From NCBI RefSeq assembly GCF_000952855.1, contig NZ_JSVU01000001.1, forward strand, positions 1-64,000: a DNA stretch of 64,000 bases. Direction: 5' to 3'. The stretch comes from Aequorivita vladivostokensis (GTDB lineage Bacteria > Bacteroidota > Bacteroidia > Flavobacteriales > Flavobacteriaceae). The notes under the pieces were generated by a model that worked only from the letters and a program-made list of their open reading frames with translations, was not told the origin of the DNA and ran no database searches. Shown here in pieces: positions 27,353 to 41,302 of the stretch (the stretch's first letter is position 1; the number at the start of each line of letters is the position of its first letter). The position numbers and the translations under genes were made by a program.

Positions 27353-28384
27353 CTATTTTTTAAACTTCAACTTCTCCGAACGTCCTTTTTTAAAAATCTT
27401 ATTACTGTTCGGGATGCCCTGGCGCAGGCGTTTCTGCTCTTCGTAGGGCAAGTGGATTATCTCGATACATTCTTCGGAACAACAGTTTTCCATTGCCACG
27501 GCACATTTCTCACATTGAATAAAAAGCAAGTGGCAGGCCTCGTTGGCGCAATTGGTATGCGTGTCGCAGGGTTCACCGCATTGGTGGCAGTTTGAAATTA
27601 CATCATCTGTAATGCGTTCGCCACGGCGATGGTCAAAAACGAAATTTTTTCCGATGAATTTATTTTCCAAACCTAAATTTTCCACTTGGCGCGCGTATTC
27701 AATAATACCGCCTTCCAGCTGGAACACATTCTTAAAACCTTTGTGTTTGTAGTAAGCGCTGGCCTTTTCGCAACGGATGCCGCCCGTGCAGTACATTACC
27801 AATTTCTTGTCTTCTTTGTGGTCTTTTAAATCTGCTTCTATAATATCCAAAGAATCACGAAACGTATCCACATCGGGCGTAACGGCGTTTTTGAAATGGC
27901 CGATTTCGCTTTCATAATGGTTGCGCATATCTACCAAAACCACATCGGGATCTTCAATAAGTTCGTTGAATTTTTGCGCATCCACGTGGATTCCCTTATT
28001 GGTAACGTCGAAGGTTTCGTCATTCAAGCCATCGGCAACAATCTTATCGCGCACTTTTACTTTCAGCTTTAGAAATGACTTCAAATCCTGCTCAATGGCA
28101 ATGTTCAAACGTACGTCTTTCAGAAAATAAATACCGTCCAGGAATTCCTTAAATTCCTTAAAACGTTTCGCCGGAACGGAAAGTTGGGCGTTTATGCCTT
28201 CGTGGGCTACGTAAATTCGGCCCAAAACGTCCTGCTCGTGCCAGGCAACAAAAAGATGGTTACGGAAAAGATGCGGATTGCCAATTTTGGCATATTGATA
28301 AAAAGAAAGGGTTAGCCGTTCCTCGCCGGCCTGTTCCAATAATGCTTCCCTCTCTTTTGCACTTAATTTGTTGTACAGTTGCAT
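27353..28384 (-). CDS. trhO: tRNA uridine(34) hydroxylase, rhodanese family
   Basis: This 343-residue protein has the layout of TrhO (YceA/UPF0176): an N-terminal acylphosphatase-like domain (about 20-110), a rhodanese domain (about 125-240) with the active-site loop MYCTGGIRCEKAS, and a C-terminal cysteine-rich domain (CHQCGEPCDTHTNCAN, then CEKC). TrhO makes 5-hydroxyuridine at position 34 of certain tRNAs in an O2-dependent reaction. It stands alone, with repeats downstream. Confidence 0.92.
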   Translation of the reverse strand: MQLYNKLSAKEREALLEQAGEERLTLSFYQYAKIGNPHLFRNHLFVAWHEQDVLGRIYVAHEGINAQLSVPAKRFKEFKEFLDGIYFLKDVRLNIAIEQDLKSFLKLKVKVRDKIVADGLNDETFDVTNKGIHVDAQKFNELIEDPDVVLVDMRNHYESEIGHFKNAVTPDVDTFRDSLDIIEADLKDHKEDKKLVMYCTGGIRCEKASAYYKHKGFKNVFQLEGGIIEYARQVENLGLENKFIGKNFVFDHRRGERITDDVISNCHQCGEPCDTHTNCANEACHLLFIQCEKCAVAMENCCSEECIEIIHLPYEEQKRLRQGIPNSNKIFKKGRSEKLKFKK

Positions 28385-29302: not shown

Positions 29303-30310
29303 ATGAGCACTGAAAAAGACGCAAAACTAAAAGCACTAAAGCTTACTCTCGATAAACTTGACAAAACCTACGGCAAGGGAACCGTAATGAAAATGGGCGA
29401 TAGCGCCGTGGAGGATGTGGACGTAATCCCAACAGGTTCACTCGGCTTGGATGTGGCCCTGGGCGTAGGCGGTTATCCGCGCGGGAGGGTAATAGAAATC
29501 TACGGTCCCGAATCCTCCGGTAAAACAACCTTGACGCTCCATGCAATGGCAGAGGCCCAGAAAAAAGGAGGGATTGCCGCATTTATTGATGCAGAGCACG
29601 CCTTCGACCGCGGTTATGCCGAAAAGCTCGGCGTAGATATTGAAAACCTGATCATTTCGCAACCCGATAATGGCGAGCAGGCTTTGGAAATCGCAGACAA
29701 TCTAATCCGAAGTGGAGCCATAGACATTGTGGTTATTGACTCCGTAGCCGCCTTGACGCCGAAAAGCGAAATAGAGGGCGAAATGGGCGACAGCAAAATG
29801 GGGCTCCATGCCCGATTGATGAGCCAAGCTTTGCGAAAACTTACGGGCTCCATCAGCAAAACGAAATGTACGGTAATCTTCATTAACCAATTGCGCGAAA
29901 AGATAGGCGTAATGTTCGGCAACCCAGAAACTACAACTGGCGGTAACGCTTTAAAATTTTATGCGTCCGTACGTTTGGACATTCGCCGTTCCACACAGAT
30001 TAAGGATACCGACAGCAACGCTACAGGTAACAAAACCCGCGTAAAAGTGGTAAAAAACAAAGTAGCGCCACCCTTCAAACAAGCAGAGTTTGACATTATG
30101 TATGGCGAAGGAATCTCCAAAGTGGGTGAAATAATTGACCTGGGCGTTGATTTCGAAATCATCAAAAAGGCGGGCTCTTGGTTCAGTTATGACGATACCA
30201 AACTTGGGCAAGGGCGCGATGCCGTTAAAAATCTACTTCTGGACAATCCAGAACTGATGGACGAGCTGGAAAAGAAAATCAAAGATGCCATTGCGGCCAT
30301 AAGCCAATAA
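29303..30310 (+). CDS. recA: Recombinase RecA
   Basis: RecA forms filaments on single-stranded DNA, catalyses strand exchange and triggers LexA cleavage where LexA exists. Seen: Walker [10 protein letters not shown] at about residues 66-74, the segment [14 protein letters not shown], Walker B-type VVIDSVAAL, the L1/L2 region ending [17 protein letters not shown], and [15 protein letters not shown]. The 335 residues and the order are standard. ATG 29303 gives the usual N-terminus. Confidence 0.98.
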
Positions 30311-30436
30311 AATTTCAGCAAAGTACGCAACCCTTTTGATACACTGGTATCTACACAATGTAGGAACCTTGATTATTACGGTTGCCCTCTGAAGAAAGAG
30401 GTATTTACAACGGAACGATAACTCACGGTACCGCAT

Positions 30437-30970
30437 TTGACATTAGACGAGCTCATAATACAATGCAAAAAGCAGGATGCAACGGCGCAGGGCGAATTGT
30501 ACAAGCAGTACAACAGAATCCTTTTTGCCATTTGTCTTCGCTATTCGCCTAACTATTCCGAAGCTGAAGACAATTTGCAGGATGCTTTTATCACCATTTT
30601 TAAAAAAATTGAGCAATATAACGCCAAAGGTTCTTTTGAAGGCTGGATGAAACGGGTAACCGTAAACACCGTGCTTCAAAAATACCGAAAGCAGCGAACC
30701 TTTGAAATTGTTGACGAAGGCCAGATCGAAGATGAAGCTGAGGTAGAAATTGAAAGCGAGGAAATTCCCTTGGACTTCCTGCTGAAAATAGTACAGGAAC
30801 TGCCCGATAGGTACCGATTGGTTTTCAGTATGTACGTGATGGACGGCTATCAGCACAAAGAGATAGCGGAAATGTTAGGAATCAGCGATGGCACGTCTAA
30901 ATCAAACCTGGCACGCGCCAGAATGATATTGAAAAATAAAATTGAAGACTATAATGCCAATAAACTATAA
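30437..30970 (+). CDS. ECF RNA polymerase sigma factor paired with a trans-envelope anti-sigma protein
   Basis: This 177-residue sigma-70 family protein has region 2 at about residues 20-90 (YSEAEDNLQDAFITIFKKI, then FEGWMKRVTVNTVLQ) and region 4 at about 115-170 (LPDRYRLVFSMYVMDGYQHK, HTH ISDGTSKSNLARARMIL). A Glu-rich linker joins them. It opens with TTG 30437. The gene after it, 111 bases on, encodes an inner-membrane plus outer-membrane protein with an anti-sigma-like cytosolic end, its probable partner. Confidence 0.92.
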   Translation: MTLDELIIQCKKQDATAQGELYKQYNRILFAICLRYSPNYSEAEDNLQDAFITIFKKIEQYNAKGSFEGWMKRVTVNTVLQKYRKQRTFEIVDEGQIEDEAEVEIESEEIPLDFLLKIVQELPDRYRLVFSMYVMDGYQHKEIAEMLGISDGTSKSNLARARMILKNKIEDYNANKL

Positions 30971-31012
30971 CACTTAAGGTATTATATGAATTGTTTAGAT
31001 TGAAAATGTAAT

Positions 31013-31036
31013 CCCCCGCTCTTGGGTGGGGGTTTT
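31013..31036 (+). terminator. CCCCC/GGGGG hairpin between sigma and anti-sigma genes
   Basis: CCCCC (31013-31017) pairs with GGGGG (31028-31032), followed by TTTT. The T-run is short, so it may only attenuate transcription into the next gene. A degraded CCCGCC/GCGG repeat lies between it and the start codon (about 31052-31074). Confidence 0.5.
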
Positions 31037-31081
31037 ACAAAAAAAGATTCCCGCCAGAGTTTATCTTGAGCGGAACCAATA

Positions 31082-32638
31082 ATGAAAGAAAAGAAAAACA
31101 TAGACAACATTTTTAACGAAGGTTTCAAAAACTTTGAGGCCACTCCTTCGCCACGCGTTTGGGAAAAGATCCAAGCCGAGCTTAAAAAGGAGAAGAAGGA
31201 GCGCAAGGTTATCCCGCTGTGGGTTAAACTTGGGGGTGTTGCCGCGTTGCTCGCGCTTTTGTTGACCGTTGGCAATTCGCTTTTCAATTCTTCGGAAATA
31301 GCAACGCCTGCGATTACGGAGGAAAAGGTGATTAAGACCGAAAAGGAACTACAGCAAAATGCTTCTGAAATAGAAAAAGATGCAAACAAAACACAAGTAG
31401 CTTCTGAGGACAATCCACTTCAAAATGAATCGTTGGAAAGCGAGAAGGTTTCCCATAAAAATGCTTCGGAAACTAAATCCCAAACAAAGGCTTCCAATAA
31501 TATTTTCAAAAGCGCTTCTGAGAGAAACGGGGAAGCCGTAGTCGCTGCAAGCAATTCTGAAAAAAGAAATTCAAACACGGCTCAAGATTCCAAAGAAAAT
31601 CTGGTAGAGAAGCAGATTTCTAAGAATGATTTAAATGAAGGGATAGCCGTTTTAAAAAATAGTTCTGAAAAAACAAACACGGAAAATAAAGAAATAGCTA
31701 CCGAAAAGGGTATCAAAAAAGATGAAGCTATTTTCAACAACAAGAAAGAAGGCGTTGCGGTAAACGAAAATTCCGAAGTGAAAAAAATAGGAGAAAGCGT
31801 TGTAAAAACCGAGGAGGAAATGGCGGAAGCCTCCAAAAACAAAAAATCCATTTTTGACGCTATTGCCGAAAAAGATGAAGAAATAGTTCCCGAAAAGAAA
31901 AAGAAAGAAAAGCCGGAACAGCGCTGGAGTGTTGCCCCAAACGTTGCTCCCGTGTATTATAGCAGTCTTGGAAATGGGTCTTCCATTGACCCAAATTTTG
32001 CGGATAATCCACAGAGTGGAGACGTAAATATGAGCTATGGAGTGCAAGTGAGCTATGCGCTGAGCAACCGTTTAAGTGTTCGTGCCGGCGTTAACAATGT
32101 AGATTTAAGTTACAGTACGAGTGGCATTGAAGTAGGCACTGGCCCCGTTGCTGCGGCCTTACGTTCTGTTGACTATGGAAGTAGAGAAATCGTAGTTACT
32201 GCCGTAGATAAAGGTGCTTTGAGCAATGCAGCCCCATCCAATGGTTTTGGAGATATCATGCCGAAATCCTTACAGGGCGACGCCAGATTGGTACAGAACA
32301 TAAATTATTATGAAGTGCCCGTAGAGTTGAAATACGCAGTAGTAAACAGTAGGTTTGGCGTAAATATTATTGGAGGTCTCAGTACGTTGTTTTTAGGTAA
32401 TGATGAAATTTCTGTGAAGGCAGATAATTTCAATACTGTTCTGGGAGAAGCGAATAATCTTTCAAGCGTGAGTTTTTCAACTAACGTAGGGCTGGGAGTG
32501 GACTATAAACTGTCCAAAAAATTTACGTTTAATATTGAGCCCATGTTTAAATACCAGCTCAACCCTTATACCGATTCATCTGTAAACTTTAAGCCATATT
32601 ATTTAGGTGTTTACAGCGGATTGAGTTTCAAGTTTTAG
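31082..32638 (+). CDS. Dual-membrane-spanning anti-sigma-like protein with C-terminal outer-membrane beta-barrel
   Basis: This 518-residue protein has no N-terminal signal peptide. Residues 1-43 are a charged cytosolic segment (FNEGFKNFEATPSPRVWEKI), 44-65 a transmembrane helix (VKLGGVAALLALLLTV), and 70-280 a long low-complexity Lys/Glu/Asn/Ser linker. Residues 281-518 form an outer-membrane barrel that starts RWSVAPNVAPVYYSS and ends YLGVYSGLSFKF, with the terminal Phe typical of such barrels. It thus reaches from cytoplasm to outer membrane. This matches the dual-membrane-spanning anti-sigma (Dma) class described in Bacteroides thetaiotaomicron, where it pairs with an ECF sigma factor and controls vesiculation. 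The function here is inferred from layout and pairing. Confidence 0.82.
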   Translation: MKEKKNIDNIFNEGFKNFEATPSPRVWEKIQAELKKEKKERKVIPLWVKLGGVAALLALLLTVGNSLFNSSEIATPAITEEKVIKTEKELQQNASEIEKDANKTQVASEDNPLQNESLESEKVSHKNASETKSQTKASNNIFKSASERNGEAVVAASNSEKRNSNTAQDSKENLVEKQISKNDLNEGIAVLKNSSEKTNTENKEIATEKGIKKDEAIFNNKKEGVAVNENSEVKKIGESVVKTEEEMAEASKNKKSIFDAIAEKDEEIVPEKKKKEKPEQRWSVAPNVAPVYYSSLGNGSSIDPNFADNPQSGDVNMSYGVQVSYALSNRLSVRAGVNNVDLSYSTSGIEVGTGPVAAALRSVDYGSREIVVTAVDKGALSNAAPSNGFGDIMPKSLQGDARLVQNINYYEVPVELKYAVVNSRFGVNIIGGLSTLFLGNDEISVKADNFNTVLGEANNLSSVSFSTNVGLGVDYKLSKKFTFNIEPMFKYQLNPYTDSSVNFKPYYLGVYSGLSFKF

Positions 32639-32692
32639 GTTAGTTTTTAGTTGAATGTGTTTGATATACTTCAAACAAAATGATTGCAAAAG

Positions 32693-32715
32693 ACCGTCCT
32701 CCGCCATAGGACGGT
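32693..32715 (+). terminator. Rho-independent terminator
   Basis: ACCGTCCT (32693-32700) and AGGACGGT (32708-32715) enclose a 7-base loop and are followed by at least five more T residues. Confidence 0.85.
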
Positions 32716-32808
32716 TTTTTTATTCTTTCTTAATTTTGGATTAAGAACCTTATGGGACTTAATTGAAAGGGATTTTCCTGACCGCTAGAACAGAATTAAG
32801 AATATACT

Positions 32809-33549
32809 TCAAACCGTCGGCGCCAATAATTCCCCCAAAATAACATCCCGCGTTTTCTGTTTCAACTCCTTTCTATTTTCCAAAGTCAAGTTTTCGGTGG
32901 GGATAAGGTTGTGTACTTTTACGCGCATCTTGCCCGGCCCACCTTTAAAAAAGGAATACGGAAACCGCTTTTTGTTGTCGTGAAAAGTCATCGGCGCAAT
33001 GGGAATTTGGTGCTCAATGGAAAGCCGAAAGGCGCCATCCTTAAATTCATCCAACAAAAGCGAGAGGTCTTCCGGCACGCCGCCTTCGGGAAAAATGCAG
33101 ACGCTTAAACCCTCGTTCAATCTAATTTCCGCTCTGCGAAATGCTTCCACGCGACTTTTAGTATTGCCGCGATCCACCAAAATACAGGTGCGTTTATAGA
33201 TGTATCCAAAAAGAGGAATCTTTGCCAATTCTTTTTTCCCAACAAACACAAACGGATTTTTTGTGGCGTAAAACATCAGCATAATATCGGTCATTGAAGT
33301 GTGGTTCGCCACAAACATATAGCTTTTGCCTTTTTTATAATTTACCTCCCTTTTGATGACGGGATAGCAGCCAATGCCATAAATTATAAAAGCCGACCAA
33401 GTGCGGGCCACTTTAAAGAAAAAGGGATACCAGGAATTTTTCAGAATGCTTATTACCAAGAACGGAAAGAGCAGGATAGTGGCCAGAGCGACTATCAAAT
33501 AAAACCAAATGCGGTAAAGCGCCGCAAAAATTTGTTGAATTAGCTTCAT
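32809..33549 (-). CDS. 1-acyl-sn-glycerol-3-phosphate acyltransferase family (PlsC-like)
   Basis: This 246-residue membrane protein has one or two N-terminal hydrophobic segments (about 10-32) and the acyltransferase motifs: block 1 VANHTSMTDIML (HxxxxD), block 3 IFPEGGVPEDLS, and block 4 IPIAPMTF. It probably adds an acyl chain to lysophosphatidate in phospholipid synthesis at the inner membrane. The exact acceptor is inferred. It is divergent from trpS. Confidence 0.88.
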   Translation of the reverse strand: MKLIQQIFAALYRIWFYLIVALATILLFPFLVISILKNSWYPFFFKVARTWSAFIIYGIGCYPVIKREVNYKKGKSYMFVANHTSMTDIMLMFYATKNPFVFVGKKELAKIPLFGYIYKRTCILVDRGNTKSRVEAFRRAEIRLNEGLSVCIFPEGGVPEDLSLLLDEFKDGAFRLSIEHQIPIAPMTFHDNKKRFPYSFFKGGPGKMRVKVHNLIPTENLTLENRKELKQKTRDVILGELLAPTV

Positions 33550-37508: not shown

Positions 37509-37702
37509 AACAATTCTAATTTCATAAACTATTGATTCAGTTGGTTTTTCGTCAAATATTTTTATGTTAAAATGAAATATTTAGACCGAAACTTGATGGG
37601 TTTAAAGTAGGTATTAAATATATTTGAAATCCTTTCTTGAAAATTTCATTTGAAATATTCCATAAGGGTGTCCAAAAACCTATTTTAAAATCTGTCGCAA
37701 TT

Positions 37703-40700
37703 ATGAAAAAAACTACCCTTCTCTCTTTTCGAAATCTCTGTTTTTTGGCAATGGCATTTGTGTTCTCCATGTCGTTCGGCCAAAATTCTACCAGCATCAA
37801 TTTTCAAGGCGAAACAATTGTAATGCCTGAAAATATTTCAACTTTCCAATGGAGCCAAATGCCCGAATCGGCAAGACTTAATAACGGTTTTGTTGCTTGG
37901 GTTCAATTTTATGAAACTCCTTCACAAAACGTACAAAACCTTTTTAAAAGAAATAAGGTGGAATTGTTGGAATATATTCCCCATAAAACCTATTTGGCTT
38001 TTTTTCCAAATAACACCAGCGTTAATCTATTACGAAACAACGGGGTGCGCAGTGTGATAGCCGTGCCGGCGAGCGTGAAAATATCAAATGGATTAAAACT
38101 TCCTCCCTATGATTCTTACGCTATGGATGGGAACAATATTTTGGTGACACTTCAATTTCATAAAAATGTTTCTGCCGAATACGTAATTCAGCAGTTGGCA
38201 GAAAAGCAAATTGCGGTAAAACAACAATATAAAGGATCTAACAATATTGATCTTTCTATACCCAACAACTGTTTGGATGAACTAGCTGGGCAGCCTTTTG
38301 TTAAATGGATAGAATTAATTGTGGCACCGTCAGTTCCAGACGATACCCGAGGCCGAAGCTTGCACCGCTCCAGCAATTTGGATACCCAAACTTCTGCCGG
38401 AAGAAATTATACAGGATTGGACATAGGCGTATTGTGCCGCGATGATGGCATTGTAGGTCCCCATATAGATTTTCAGGGAAGAATTGATAACTCACAGGCC
38501 ACAGGTACGGGCGCGAATCATGGTGACGGGGTTTCAGGAATTATGTCGGGCGCCGGAAATATAAACCCCTCGAATCGGGGAATGGCAGCAGGATCATTTT
38601 TATATGTGGTAAACTATCAACCCTCATTTCTGGATTCTCCTACCGTTTCGCTTATCAATAGCGGAGACGTACTTATTACAAATTCTTCCTACAGTAATGG
38701 TTGCAATGATGGTTATACCACCATAACCCAAACCGTGGATACGCAGGTGCATTCTATGCCAAATCTTCAGCATACCTTTTCCGCAGGAAACTCCAATGGA
38801 AGCAATTGTGGTTATGGTGCAGGAGGCCAGTGGGGAAATATAACCGGAGGGCATAAGCAAGGCAAGAATGTTATTGCTACGGCAAATGTGTTTTTTGACG
38901 GTTCGTTGGTTAATTCCAGCAGTCGCGGCCCAGCCCATGATGGTAGAATTAAACCCGACATTGCGGCCAATGGTCAAAATCAAATTTCAACAGATGAAAA
39001 TAATACCTACAGATCTTTTGGCGGTACTTCTGGTGCCTCTCCGGGCATTGCAGGTGTTTCGGCACAGTTATACCAAGCTTATTCAGAGGCCAATGGCAAT
39101 GTGCTTCCTCCTTCGGCACTCATAAAGGCAACGCTTTTAAATACTGCAAATGATGCTGGAAATGTAGGCCCTGATTACAAATTTGGATGGGGAATTGTGA
39201 ATGGGCTTCGTGCTGCAAAGCTTATCGAAGACAATCGTTTTCTTTCCGGGGTTATTTCGCAAGGCGGATCAAACAACCATAATATTAGCTTGCCCGCTGG
39301 CACCAAACAAGTTCGCTTTATGGTTTATTGGAGTGATAGTCCTGCTGCACCCGGTGCCAATCCGGCCTTGGTAAACGATTTGGACTTGCTGGTTACAGAT
39401 CCGGCAAGCAATGTTTTGGAGCCCTATATTTTAGACCCAACGCCCAATCCGGTTACACTGAATCTTCCCGCCACAAATGGCCCAGACCACTTGAATAATA
39501 TGGAACAAGTGGTTATCAATAATCCTGCTGCCGGTAACTATAATGTTAACATTGCTGGGTTTAACGTGCCGATGGGCCCGCAGGAATATTTTGTGGTTTA
39601 TGAAATTATTTCAGATAACATAACCGTGACCTATCCAAATGCAGGAGAAAGCTTTGTTCCCGGGGAAACGGAATCCATCCATTGGGACGCCGTGGCTGTA
39701 AATACCACTTCAAATTTTGTTCTAGAATATTCCACCAATAACGGAAGTAGCTGGAATGCTATCGCAACTGTTCCAAACACAACTACTAATTATGGTTGGT
39801 CTGTTCCAAATTCAGTTACAGGAGATGCCTTAATTCGTGTGAGCAATGGTTCGTCACAAGATGTGAGTGATGAAAACTTTTCTATCGCACCGTTGGTTAC
39901 AAACGTGCAGGTAAGCCAAGTTTGTCCTACCGAAGCAACCTTTTCCTGGAATGCAGTAAGCGGTGCGGAATCGTATGATCTATATATTTTAGGCGATAAG
40001 TATATGGAAGTTGCCGGTACTTCAACAACCAATAGCATTACCGTATCCATCCCAAATTCTGCGGACCCAATTTGGTTCGCCGCTTTGGCGAAGAACACAA
40101 CAGAAGCTTGGGAGGGTAGAAGAAGTATTGCTGTTCTATATGGAGGCGGTTTGCTGAACTGTACACTTGCTAATGATTTGGCTATTGAAAGCAACAACGA
40201 GGCGAGCGATTTCAACTTAATATGTAATCCAGGCCCTGCGACTGTTTCAACAACCATTTGGAATTTTGGAAGTAGTCCCGAAAGTAATTTTGAAGTAACC
40301 TATCAATTGGATAGCGGATTGGTGATAAGTGAAACCTATACAGGAACCTTGGCGCCCGGCGAACAAACAATCTTTGATTTTTCAACACCTTTGGATATTA
40401 CCGCGGCGGGCAATTATACACTAACCGTATCGGTAAACTTGAGCGGTGATGAAAATCCAAATAACAACACCGATATCCTAACCTTTTATGCCGCAACAGA
40501 TGCCGAGCAACTGGATTATGCGGAACCTTTTGATGTGAACGGGCTTCCACCCGCAGGTTGGAATATTATAAATCCCGACAATGACGATACGTGGCAGGAA
40601 AGATCAAATGTAACAGGAAGCGATGGGGCACCAACGGTAACAGGCTATATTGACAATTTTTCCTATAATGGTCAGGGCGATGAGGATGTTTTGGAAACCC

Positions 40701-41302
40701 TTTATATTGACTTAACCTATGCTACTTCAGCTCAACTAGACTTTGATCTGGCGAAAGCGCAATATTCAACCACCTTTACAGATGCATTTAGAGTTGATGT
40801 TTCTATAGATTGTGGTGCTACTTTCACACAAATCTATTATAAGGAAGGCCTTGGCCTTTCCACGGTTTCTGGATATATTACCACTTTATGGACTCCCAAT
40901 TCCGCTTCTGATTGGCGTACCGAAATGGTAGATCTTGCCCCATACTTGGGAGAGAATGTTCAGTTCCGTTTTGTGAATATTAACGGCTATGGAAACAGTA
41001 CTTTTATAGATAACATTAATGTTAGCGGCGTTTTGGGAGTTGCCAAAGAAGAATTGAATGGGATAAAAATGTATCCAAATCCGGCCAATAGCGAAGTATT
41101 CATCAATTTTAAAAATGTATCGACCGATGCTTCCATCACTTTATTTAATAGTCTGGGGCAAAGGTTACAGTTCATTTCTGAAACAGAAATGGCAGGAAAA
41201 TCCCAAGCTATCTTGAACGTTTCTGGATTAGCGAGTGGTGTTTACTTTGTGAAGATTAAGATGGGAGAAAACACTTCAACCAAAAAATTGATAGTTCAAT
41301 AA
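37703..41302 (+). CDS. Secreted S8 (subtilisin-type) serine protease with T9SS sorting domain
   Basis: From ATG 37703 the protein has 1199 residues. It has a signal peptide (about 1-27, ending SMSFGQ) and a propeptide region, then an S8 domain with the three catalytic motifs: Asp in VLCRDDGIVGPH, His in ANHGDGVSGIM, Ser in FGGTSGASPGIAG. Beta-rich domains fill the region of about 560-1110, including an FN3-like segment (VCPTEATFSWNAVSGAESYD). The T9SS type A tail starts GIKMYPNPANSEVFI and ends STKKLIVQ. It is exported through the outer membrane and likely degrades extracellular protein. Confidence 0.93.
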   Translation: MKKTTLLSFRNLCFLAMAFVFSMSFGQNSTSINFQGETIVMPENISTFQWSQMPESARLNNGFVAWVQFYETPSQNVQNLFKRNKVELLEYIPHKTYLAFFPNNTSVNLLRNNGVRSVIAVPASVKISNGLKLPPYDSYAMDGNNILVTLQFHKNVSAEYVIQQLAEKQIAVKQQYKGSNNIDLSIPNNCLDELAGQPFVKWIELIVAPSVPDDTRGRSLHRSSNLDTQTSAGRNYTGLDIGVLCRDDGIVGPHIDFQGRIDNSQATGTGANHGDGVSGIMSGAGNINPSNRGMAAGSFLYVVNYQPSFLDSPTVSLINSGDVLITNSSYSNGCNDGYTTITQTVDTQVHSMPNLQHTFSAGNSNGSNCGYGAGGQWGNITGGHKQGKNVIATANVFFDGSLVNSSSRGPAHDGRIKPDIAANGQNQISTDENNTYRSFGGTSGASPGIAGVSAQLYQAYSEANGNVLPPSALIKATLLNTANDAGNVGPDYKFGWGIVNGLRAAKLIEDNRFLSGVISQGGSNNHNISLPAGTKQVRFMVYWSDSPAAPGANPALVNDLDLLVTDPASNVLEPYILDPTPNPVTLNLPATNGPDHLNNMEQVVINNPAAGNYNVNIAGFNVPMGPQEYFVVYEIISDNITVTYPNAGESFVPGETESIHWDAVAVNTTSNFVLEYSTNNGSSWNAIATVPNTTTNYGWSVPNSVTGDALIRVSNGSSQDVSDENFSIAPLVTNVQVSQVCPTEATFSWNAVSGAESYDLYILGDKYMEVAGTSTTNSITVSIPNSADPIWFAALAKNTTEAWEGRRSIAVLYGGGLLNCTLANDLAIESNNEASDFNLICNPGPATVSTTIWNFGSSPESNFEVTYQLDSGLVISETYTGTLAPGEQTIFDFSTPLDITAAGNYTLTVSVNLSGDENPNNNTDILTFYAATDAEQLDYAEPFDVNGLPPAGWNIINPDNDDTWQERSNVTGSDGAPTVTGYIDNFSYNGQGDEDVLETLYIDLTYATSAQLDFDLAKAQYSTTFTDAFRVDVSIDCGATFTQIYYKEGLGLSTVSGYITTLWTPNSASDWRTEMVDLAPYLGENVQFRFVNINGYGNSTFIDNINVSGVLGVAKEELNGIKMYPNPANSEVFINFKNVSTDASITLFNSLGQRLQFISETEMAGKSQAILNVSGLASGVYFVKIKMGENTSTKKLIVQ

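Follow-up and report, generated by a model that had tools for sequence, protein, structure and literature searches.

A probable Dma/Reo-type sigma/anti-sigma pair, with a predicted trans-envelope anti-sigma factor, in Aequorivita vladivostokensis and other Flavobacteriaceae

Introduction

Can a single polypeptide connect the outer membrane of a flavobacterium to transcription? This question is raised by two adjacent genes of Aequorivita vladivostokensis (Flavobacteriaceae; genome of 3.27 Mb in 25 contigs), which lie on the forward strand of the first 64,000 nt of contig NZ_JSVU01000001.1 (assembly GCF_000952855.1), the whole stretch of DNA that was analysed and is referred to below as the window. 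The first gene (30437..30970) encodes an extracytoplasmic function (ECF) sigma factor of 177 residues and the second (31082..32638) a 518-residue protein with a predicted membrane helix and a predicted outer-membrane barrel. An earlier reading made without database searches, the sequence-only reading, had placed both genes at these coordinates, where they are indeed present, and had proposed that the larger product is a trans-envelope anti-sigma factor of the kind reported from Bacteroides thetaiotaomicron. To our knowledge, no pathway that clearly corresponds to the sigma-E response to outer-membrane stress has been defined in Bacteroidota. The analysis described here indicates that the window pair is very likely a Dma/Reo-type sigma/anti-sigma pair. 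In the parts of the source covered (this restriction applies to all papers cited here by PMC number), Dma proteins combine an N-terminal segment, a helix, a disordered tether and a barrel, are encoded beside an ECF21 sigma factor and are confined to Bacteroidota (PMC13088901). No description of a flavobacterial version, from Aequorivita or elsewhere, was found in the open-access literature searched, in which a paper referring to the Dma work did turn up. For Flavobacterium psychrophilum an ECF/anti-sigma pair is listed, the architecture of which is not among the parts covered (PMC9723704).

Predicted architecture of the anti-sigma protein

The 518-residue protein gave a Pfam match to OMP_b-brl_2 (2.3e-8, residues 301-485) and was modelled with AlphaFold2 from an alignment of 56 sequences. 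The putative cytosolic sigma-binding segment (residues 1-43, 31082..31210; alignment, model and profile comparison) contains predicted helices at residues 7-14 and 24-40 and is followed by a putative inner-membrane helix (residues 47-68, 31220..31285), which is supported by a hydropathy peak as well as by the model. The putative periplasmic tether that follows comprises 213 residues (69-281, 31286..31924), is hypervariable in the alignment, lacks Cys and is predicted to be disordered, with a predicted local distance difference test score (pLDDT) of <50 across residues 69-255; a short conserved helix at about residues 257-264 stands just ahead of the barrel. The barrel part (residues 282-518, 31925..32635) ends in Phe and was predicted as OmpA/OmpW-like, with eight strands within residues 282-517, a pLDDT mostly >90 and one loop block at 65. 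The model agrees with the sequence-only reading, which had described a charged segment, one helix, a linker of about 210 residues and a C-terminal barrel. A search by sequence for solved homologues returned a single match (E 0.076) over the tether, Pfam gave no match to a FecR domain up to E 1 in this protein, and a PHROGs search gave no match.

Across 98 family proteins, the tether varied between 119 and 287 residues (median 207) and contained no Cys, and an AXA-like motif after the helix occurred in seven. Most of the invariant positions of the protein fall in the barrel. Within the 46 residues ahead of the helix, P22 and W27 are invariant; reading from the first ATG recovers this P..W motif in 66 of 70 loci; three of the other four carry the segment 5' of the first ATG and one (L077) has a longer spacing.

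Conservation of the pair and kinship with Reo/Dma-like systems

Of the 149 family genomes, 132 contain a relative (131 of 148 genera), with two weak matches (G020, E 5e-4; G111, E 5.8e-7); 13 of the 17 genomes without a match are ≤2.2 Mb. Among named genomes, the barrel protein is closest to its relatives in seven loci of Aequorivita (best-segment identity 58-75 %). Two sets of loci, which share species, were compared. The first consisted of 70 loci, 30 from the family search, the window's own included, and 40 picked from its list, and contained nine second copies; for the second, a scan of genome contigs gave at least 439 relatives, of which 80 were kept. A sigma gene lies directly 5' on the same strand in all 70 first-set loci, the window's own included, and is present in 78 of the 80 second-set loci, the two exceptions (L203 and L237) beginning at contig ends. 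The pairing in 70/70 loci and the presence of a relative in 132/149 genomes indicate that the association is more than chance. These counts bear out the statement of the sequence-only reading that the barrel protein directly follows an ECF sigma gene, and answer its proposal to check conservation of the pair across the Flavobacteriaceae. The pair often sits between recA and plsC, with recA in 53 and plsC in 50 of the 70 short first-set loci, and 78 and 73, respectively, of the 80 second-set loci. In the window its neighbours are recA (29303-30310) on the 5' side and, on the 3' side and in the opposite orientation, a gene for an acyltransferase (32809-33549; Pfam AGP_acyltrn 2.3e-27, below cut-off). 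A terminator-like hairpin lies 3' of the anti-sigma gene on the forward strand (32688..32720), from a consensus scan that found four in the region compared with 2.7 expected from shuffles.

The sigma open reading frame (ORF) matched Sigma70_r2 (4.5e-16) and Sigma70_r4_2 (6.7e-16) in Pfam. Phylogenetic reconstruction placed window-type and EcfO-like sigmas in one clade (support 95/96), in a tree with long outgroup branches and many weak inner forks. For comparison of the anti-sigma protein, five proteins were drawn from class genomes taken as Bacteroidales; these are termed Reo/Dma-like on the basis of their architecture and an adjoining nigD gene, and are not the Dma sequences of B. thetaiotaomicron. 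Against them, the N-terminal segment alone gave an hhalign score of 20.5, compared with a maximum of 9.3 in 100 column shuffles, at a probability of 11 %; the segment together with the helix gave a probability of 94 %, and the barrels matched at E 5.9e-15. Four features of Dma proteins are predicted for the window protein, namely the N-terminal segment (from sequence only), one helix, a disordered tether and a C-terminal barrel. The feature of an adjacent, cognate ECF21 sigma factor compares with an adjacent ECF gene in 70/70 loci and with the clade shared with EcfO-like sigmas, subject to the long outgroup branches of that tree. A nigD-type lipoprotein in the operon or regulon, as in the EcfO-Reo/Das1-Dma1 subgroup, is not seen for the window pair.

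Barrel-less and split versions

The genome of A. vladivostokensis contains relatives in which these parts are differently arranged. One ECF sigma, 50 % identical to that of the window, is followed by a protein of 206 residues that has a comparable segment and helix and lacks a barrel. Another ECF gene precedes a 263-residue segment-plus-helix protein and then a separate 353-residue protein with a marginal barrel match (0.059). Besides the window pair, this genome has three ECF genes (L056, 1428-2597; L057, 1250-3742; L058, 1590-2916) that precede short proteins with a putative cytosolic segment and a helix, one of them barrel-less and one with a possible separate barrel protein after it.

In a sample of the phylum, the family profile matched 55 of 198 genomes. 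Of 17 listed loci (L266-L282), seven (L270, L272, L273, L274, L276, L279 and L280) had a split layout, in which the ECF gene is accompanied by a segment-plus-helix protein (about 240-265 residues) and a barrel-type gene stands by itself further downstream. Three of the seven barrel genes were run through Pfam and matched OMP_b-brl_2 at 1.3e-12, 2.1e-10 and 3.2e-5, the last below cut-off. Five long single-chain proteins (L267, L269, L275, L278 and L281) had a barrel match above cut-off in two cases, below it in two and none in L275. Fused and split forms both fall inside the sigma clade that includes EcfO-like sigmas. Proteins that are fused in certain genomes and neighbours in others are, as a rule, partners. 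The split loci also provide a natural experiment on the need for a covalent tether.

Sigma start codon and the sigma/anti-sigma gap

The sigma gene of the window starts with TTG at 30437. At one aligned position, the start codon was TTG in 48, GTG in 12 and ATG in 10 of the 70 first-set loci; for the 69 second-set loci with an alignment reaching residue 1, it was TTG in 42, GTG in 26 and ATG in one. That TTG, GTG and ATG are the sole codons to interchange here marks this position as the sigma start. In first-set controls with alignments reaching residue 1, ATG was found in 55/55 anti-sigma genes, 10/10 recA genes and 39/44 plsC genes, and at least four other anti-sigma genes (L016, L091, L093 and L097) apparently lack an ATG start. 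A conserved non-ATG start is not unique to the sigma gene, as kdsD has TTG in 28 of 30 loci (L141-L170). The weak start codon may hold the level of the sigma factor under that of the anti-sigma factor.

A gap of 111 nt separates the two genes in the window and contains a terminator-like hairpin (CCCCC...GGGGG, then TTTT; 31013..31036, forward strand). Folded alone, the hairpin has a free energy of -17.7 kcal/mol (z -3.4); in the fold of the whole 111-nt gap its G run pairs elsewhere, and the consensus terminator scan of the region did not flag it. A comparable hairpin was present in all eight related loci examined, seven from Aequorivita plus L004, a near-duplicate of L174, and was followed by a T run in six of the eight (absent in L175 and L179). 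Gaps of >60 nt occurred in seven of 74 second-set loci, all Aequorivita (median gap 4), and long gaps were also found in the first-set loci L010 and L103. In most other genera the sigma and anti-sigma genes nearly overlap. The hairpin may lower anti-sigma relative to sigma, as an attenuator, or may be a processing site.

Promoter-like motif and candidate targets

A promoter-like motif, GCAACC-N15-TATCTA, lies on the forward strand 110 nt 5' of the sigma start (30327..30353). GCAACC followed after 14-16 nt by [CT]ATC was found within 700 nt 5' of the sigma start in 57 of the 70 first-set loci, the defining set, with a spacer of 15 in 55; the 13 loci without it include all nine second-copy loci. 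In the second set, the motif with a spacer of 15 was found in 75 of 78 loci, compared with 0 of 78 for the reversed pattern, 0 of 78 for the opposite strand and 34 of 1380 other windows of the same loci. This recurrence is consistent with autoregulation, and the window sigma presumably reads a GCAACC-N15-YATCTA promoter.

Candidate targets were sought with the same motif. In eight further genomes, there were 31 exact sites compared with four sites of the reversed pattern. Of 30 sites examined, six belonged to the sigma operon, and nine of the other 24 had a lipoprotein gene starting within ≤150 nt, as called by an automatic lipobox rule; the background was 5 of 201 ORFs in kdsD neighbourhoods and the genome's own ECF loci, or 76 of 741 ORFs in a set that itself takes in both operon lipoproteins and targets. 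In eight other genomes, two of which lack the system, 27 sites fitted a looser pattern, compared with 10 reversed; 11 of the 27 were intergenic (five sigma operons, three kdsD, two DegT-type aminotransferase and one other). The aminotransferase gene was rejected as a target, the motif preceding it in two of eight genomes and being absent there in A. vladivostokensis. The product of kdsD matches the KpsF family (1.4e-94, Pfam; arabinose-5-phosphate isomerase). Among the 13 most similar loci, the window's genome included, 10 have a site scoring ≥14.9 upstream of this gene (-115 to -129), L149 and L153 a weaker one and L150 none. In A. vladivostokensis the gene after kdsD resembles tatC by eye. 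The pattern ending in YATCT gave five sites in this genome, two of them shortly before a gene start (the sigma operon itself and kdsD). In two genera (L295 and L296), the motif also occurs about 330 nt 5' of trhO-like genes; the window has a trhO (27353-28384) close to recA. A YceA rhodanese gene is listed among the ECF-type SM6 promoters of F. psychrophilum, which have a CGT box and include an ECF/anti-sigma pair (PMC9723704); in the parts covered, the SM6 motif bears no obvious equality to the GCAACC motif.

Between recA and the sigma gene, 34 of the 70 first-set and 43 of the 80 second-set loci carry a gene for a lipoprotein (about 130-160 codons), in most cases preceded by the motif. Its product was predicted as a beta-sandwich (pLDDT 90) with two conserved Cys besides the lipid-attachment Cys (34 loci within L021-L032 and L069-L108; 43 within L206-L253). 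Pfam searches with 40 members gave weak, scattered matches (best 0.0028, TraQ_transposon) and none to NigD, and comparison of the fold with the PDB gave no match at E ≤1e-3 (best 1.1e-2). NigD_C matched in 19 of the 246 genomes of the class, and the window's family is not represented among these. A nigD gene adjoins ECF and Reo/Dma-like genes in five of 28 class NigD_C loci, two with nigD placed upstream and three with it divergent. The locus numbers of nigD (03762), ecfO (03761) and reo (03760) run consecutively in Phocaeicola vulgatus (PMC13114119, PMC9308784). The parallel between the flavobacterial lipoprotein and nigD is positional, not homologous.

Proposed mechanism and alternative explanations

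The pair probably works as a Dma/Reo-type system, which is the best explanation of these data, with the sigma factor held and then freed on envelope damage to transcribe its own operon and envelope genes. We infer sigma binding, topology, recognition of this promoter by this sigma, the signal and the proteolysis step of this scheme. The N-terminal segment (about residues 1-43) would retain the ECF sigma at the inner membrane, with the helix at residues 47-68 as anchor; the 213-residue disordered tether would span the periplasm, and the eight-stranded barrel, presumably inserted by the beta-barrel assembly machinery (BAM), would lie in the outer membrane. The sigma factor would stay bound as long as the barrel is properly assembled. 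Damage to the outer membrane or to barrel assembly would change or cut the tether side, after which the N-terminal segment would be degraded or loosened, most simply if the tether and, after it, the membrane helix were cut; these final steps are modelled on known anti-sigma factors. Freed sigma would transcribe its operon and envelope genes from GCAACC-N15-YATCTA promoters, the candidate targets being lipoproteins in several genera, and kdsD (with the tatC-like gene in A. vladivostokensis) in the window's clade. The response would be self-limiting because the anti-sigma gene follows the sigma gene. As to the trigger, the chances appear even that the protein senses outer-membrane integrity and that sigma is freed when the barrel or tether is disturbed.

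Several observations weigh against this interpretation. Full-length profile comparison with the Reo/Dma-like proteins aligned the barrel alone, and likeness in the barrel is not specific because OMP_b-brl_2 is a broad family. The N-terminal segment was modelled weakly (pLDDT blocks of 54-72), which says little on sigma contact, and no protease was identified. The motif, GCAACC-N15-YATC(TA), was recognised by eye in the same 70 first-set loci that defined it, and three second-copy loci (L080, L086 and L087) have GCAACC and lack the usual second box. No site scoring >2.6 was found upstream of kdsD in the other 17, less similar loci. In A. vladivostokensis, the motif with one mismatch gave 18 sites compared with 21 in the control; no wider regulon is visible, and this candidate was rejected, 14 of the 17 non-operon sites being inside ORFs. 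The operon lipoprotein was not found in the window's clade, and the window operon has no lipoprotein gene. Identity of that lipoprotein with NigD was likewise rejected, as there was no Pfam match to NigD and profile comparison aligned the signal peptide only.

Among the alternatives, it is possible, and rather less probable than not, that the barrel is an anchor only and that the signal is sensed through the periplasmic tether, or through proteases acting on it, and not through the state of the barrel. The paralogue in the same genome that keeps the segment, the helix and the following stretch without a barrel would fit this, as would the range of tether lengths and the lack of Cys in all 98 proteins; the concentration of invariant positions in the barrel argues against it, as does the separate barrel-type gene beside the anti-sigma gene in seven of 17 class loci (three of the seven tested by Pfam). 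It is improbable that the protein is an ordinary outer-membrane barrel with a long cleaved signal sequence and an unrelated sigma neighbour, to the point that this explanation can largely be set aside. A hydrophobic stretch does stand ahead of the barrel, and cleavage of the N-terminal helix as a signal peptide is what the sequence-only reading had named as able to overturn it. However, 46 residues with the invariant P22 and W27 precede the helix, AXA-like motifs are rare (7/98), a similar segment is kept beside ECF genes in barrel-less and split versions, and the sigma pairing is complete in the first set.

A different sign of regulation, in which the anti-sigma protein is a FecR-like positive partner and sigma needs the N-terminal segment for activity, appears highly unlikely. 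FecR-type regulators are common in Bacteroidota and strict co-occurrence is compatible with either sign, but Pfam found no FecR domain in the protein (up to E 1), and loss of the analogous protein turns the regulon on in Phocaeicola and Bacteroides (PMC9308784, PMC13088901). The motif could also be that of a different ECF sigma, one governing both this operon and the other genes, which we regard as unlikely. The genome has 13 other sigma-like matches (down to E 4.3e-4), and overlapping ECF regulons have been suggested in F. psychrophilum (PMC9723704). On the other side, the motif stands at the operon in nearly all second-set loci, as expected of autoregulation, and the full motif is absent from all nine second-copy loci, though GCAACC occurs in three.

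A wider and more tentative scheme can be drawn, which we consider doubtful. The recA-linked pair would be a core outer-membrane surveillance system of the Flavobacteriaceae, in which the barrel serves the assembly machinery as a sacrificial client and failed insertion or lost tension frees sigma. Outer-membrane lipoproteins and the lipopolysaccharide (LPS) core would be renewed from one family-wide promoter type, the sigma:anti-sigma ratio would be set by the weak start codon, and fused and two-protein relay forms would exist across Bacteroidota. Present in most sampled genera of a large environmental family, and with a readable promoter and candidate targets, the pair would open outer-membrane sensing by a covalent two-membrane protein to tests in free-living species and not just in gut Bacteroides. 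For the link to gliding and the type IX secretion system (T9SS) raised by the sequence-only reading, nothing was found besides a T9SS sorting domain in a nearby protein. That protein (37637-41302) is large and secreted, with a type A sorting domain and subtilase-type matches below cut-off.

Comparison with known systems

RseA is a single-membrane anti-sigma factor with a cytosolic sigma-binding part, one helix and a periplasmic sensing part. It has no outer-membrane barrel; in the window protein the sensing part would be covalently linked. FecR signalling with TonB-dependent receptors also joins an outer-membrane barrel, an inner-membrane regulator and an ECF sigma factor. In that case a separate receptor supplies the barrel; the split loci are similar in layout but have a small barrel of the OMP_b-brl_2 type.

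EcfO-Reo of B. fragilis and P. vulgatus (PMC9308784, PMC13114119) has the architecture in common with the window pair, and lipoprotein and LPS genes are among the candidate targets here as well. A lipoprotein gene ahead of the sigma and anti-sigma genes is a further likeness, seen in other flavobacterial genera. A difference is that the flavobacterial lipoprotein has no detectable kinship to NigD and that the window's clade lacks it. When P. vulgatus loses the anti-sigma factor, the regulon is activated and the O-antigen becomes longer, and nigD lipoproteins are under its control (PMC9308784, PMC13114119). The regulon is induced by a toxin that acts on the envelope (PMC9308784), and outer-membrane stress has been proposed as the EcfO-Reo signal (PMC13114119).

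Dma1/Das1 and Dma2/Das2 of B. thetaiotaomicron (PMC13088901) share with the window pair the segment, helix, long tether, barrel and adjacent ECF gene. As a trait of the Dma family, loss frees the sigma factor and yields more vesicles. Dma1 acts via nigD1 and Dma2 alters expression of polysaccharide utilization loci (PULs), whereas the window operon has no nigD. The Dma2 operon is confined to B. thetaiotaomicron and close relatives, whereas the window family extends to 132 of 149 genomes of the Flavobacteriaceae, often beside recA and with a non-ATG sigma start. The trans-envelope anti-sigma factor proposed by the sequence-only reading, and its likeness to the B. thetaiotaomicron class, fit the architecture, the ECF pairing, the N-terminal signature and the sigma clade. 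The design is already known from gut Bacteroides and Phocaeicola; what is added here is its spread through most sampled genera of the family, the non-ATG sigma start, the promoter motif and the barrel-less and split versions.

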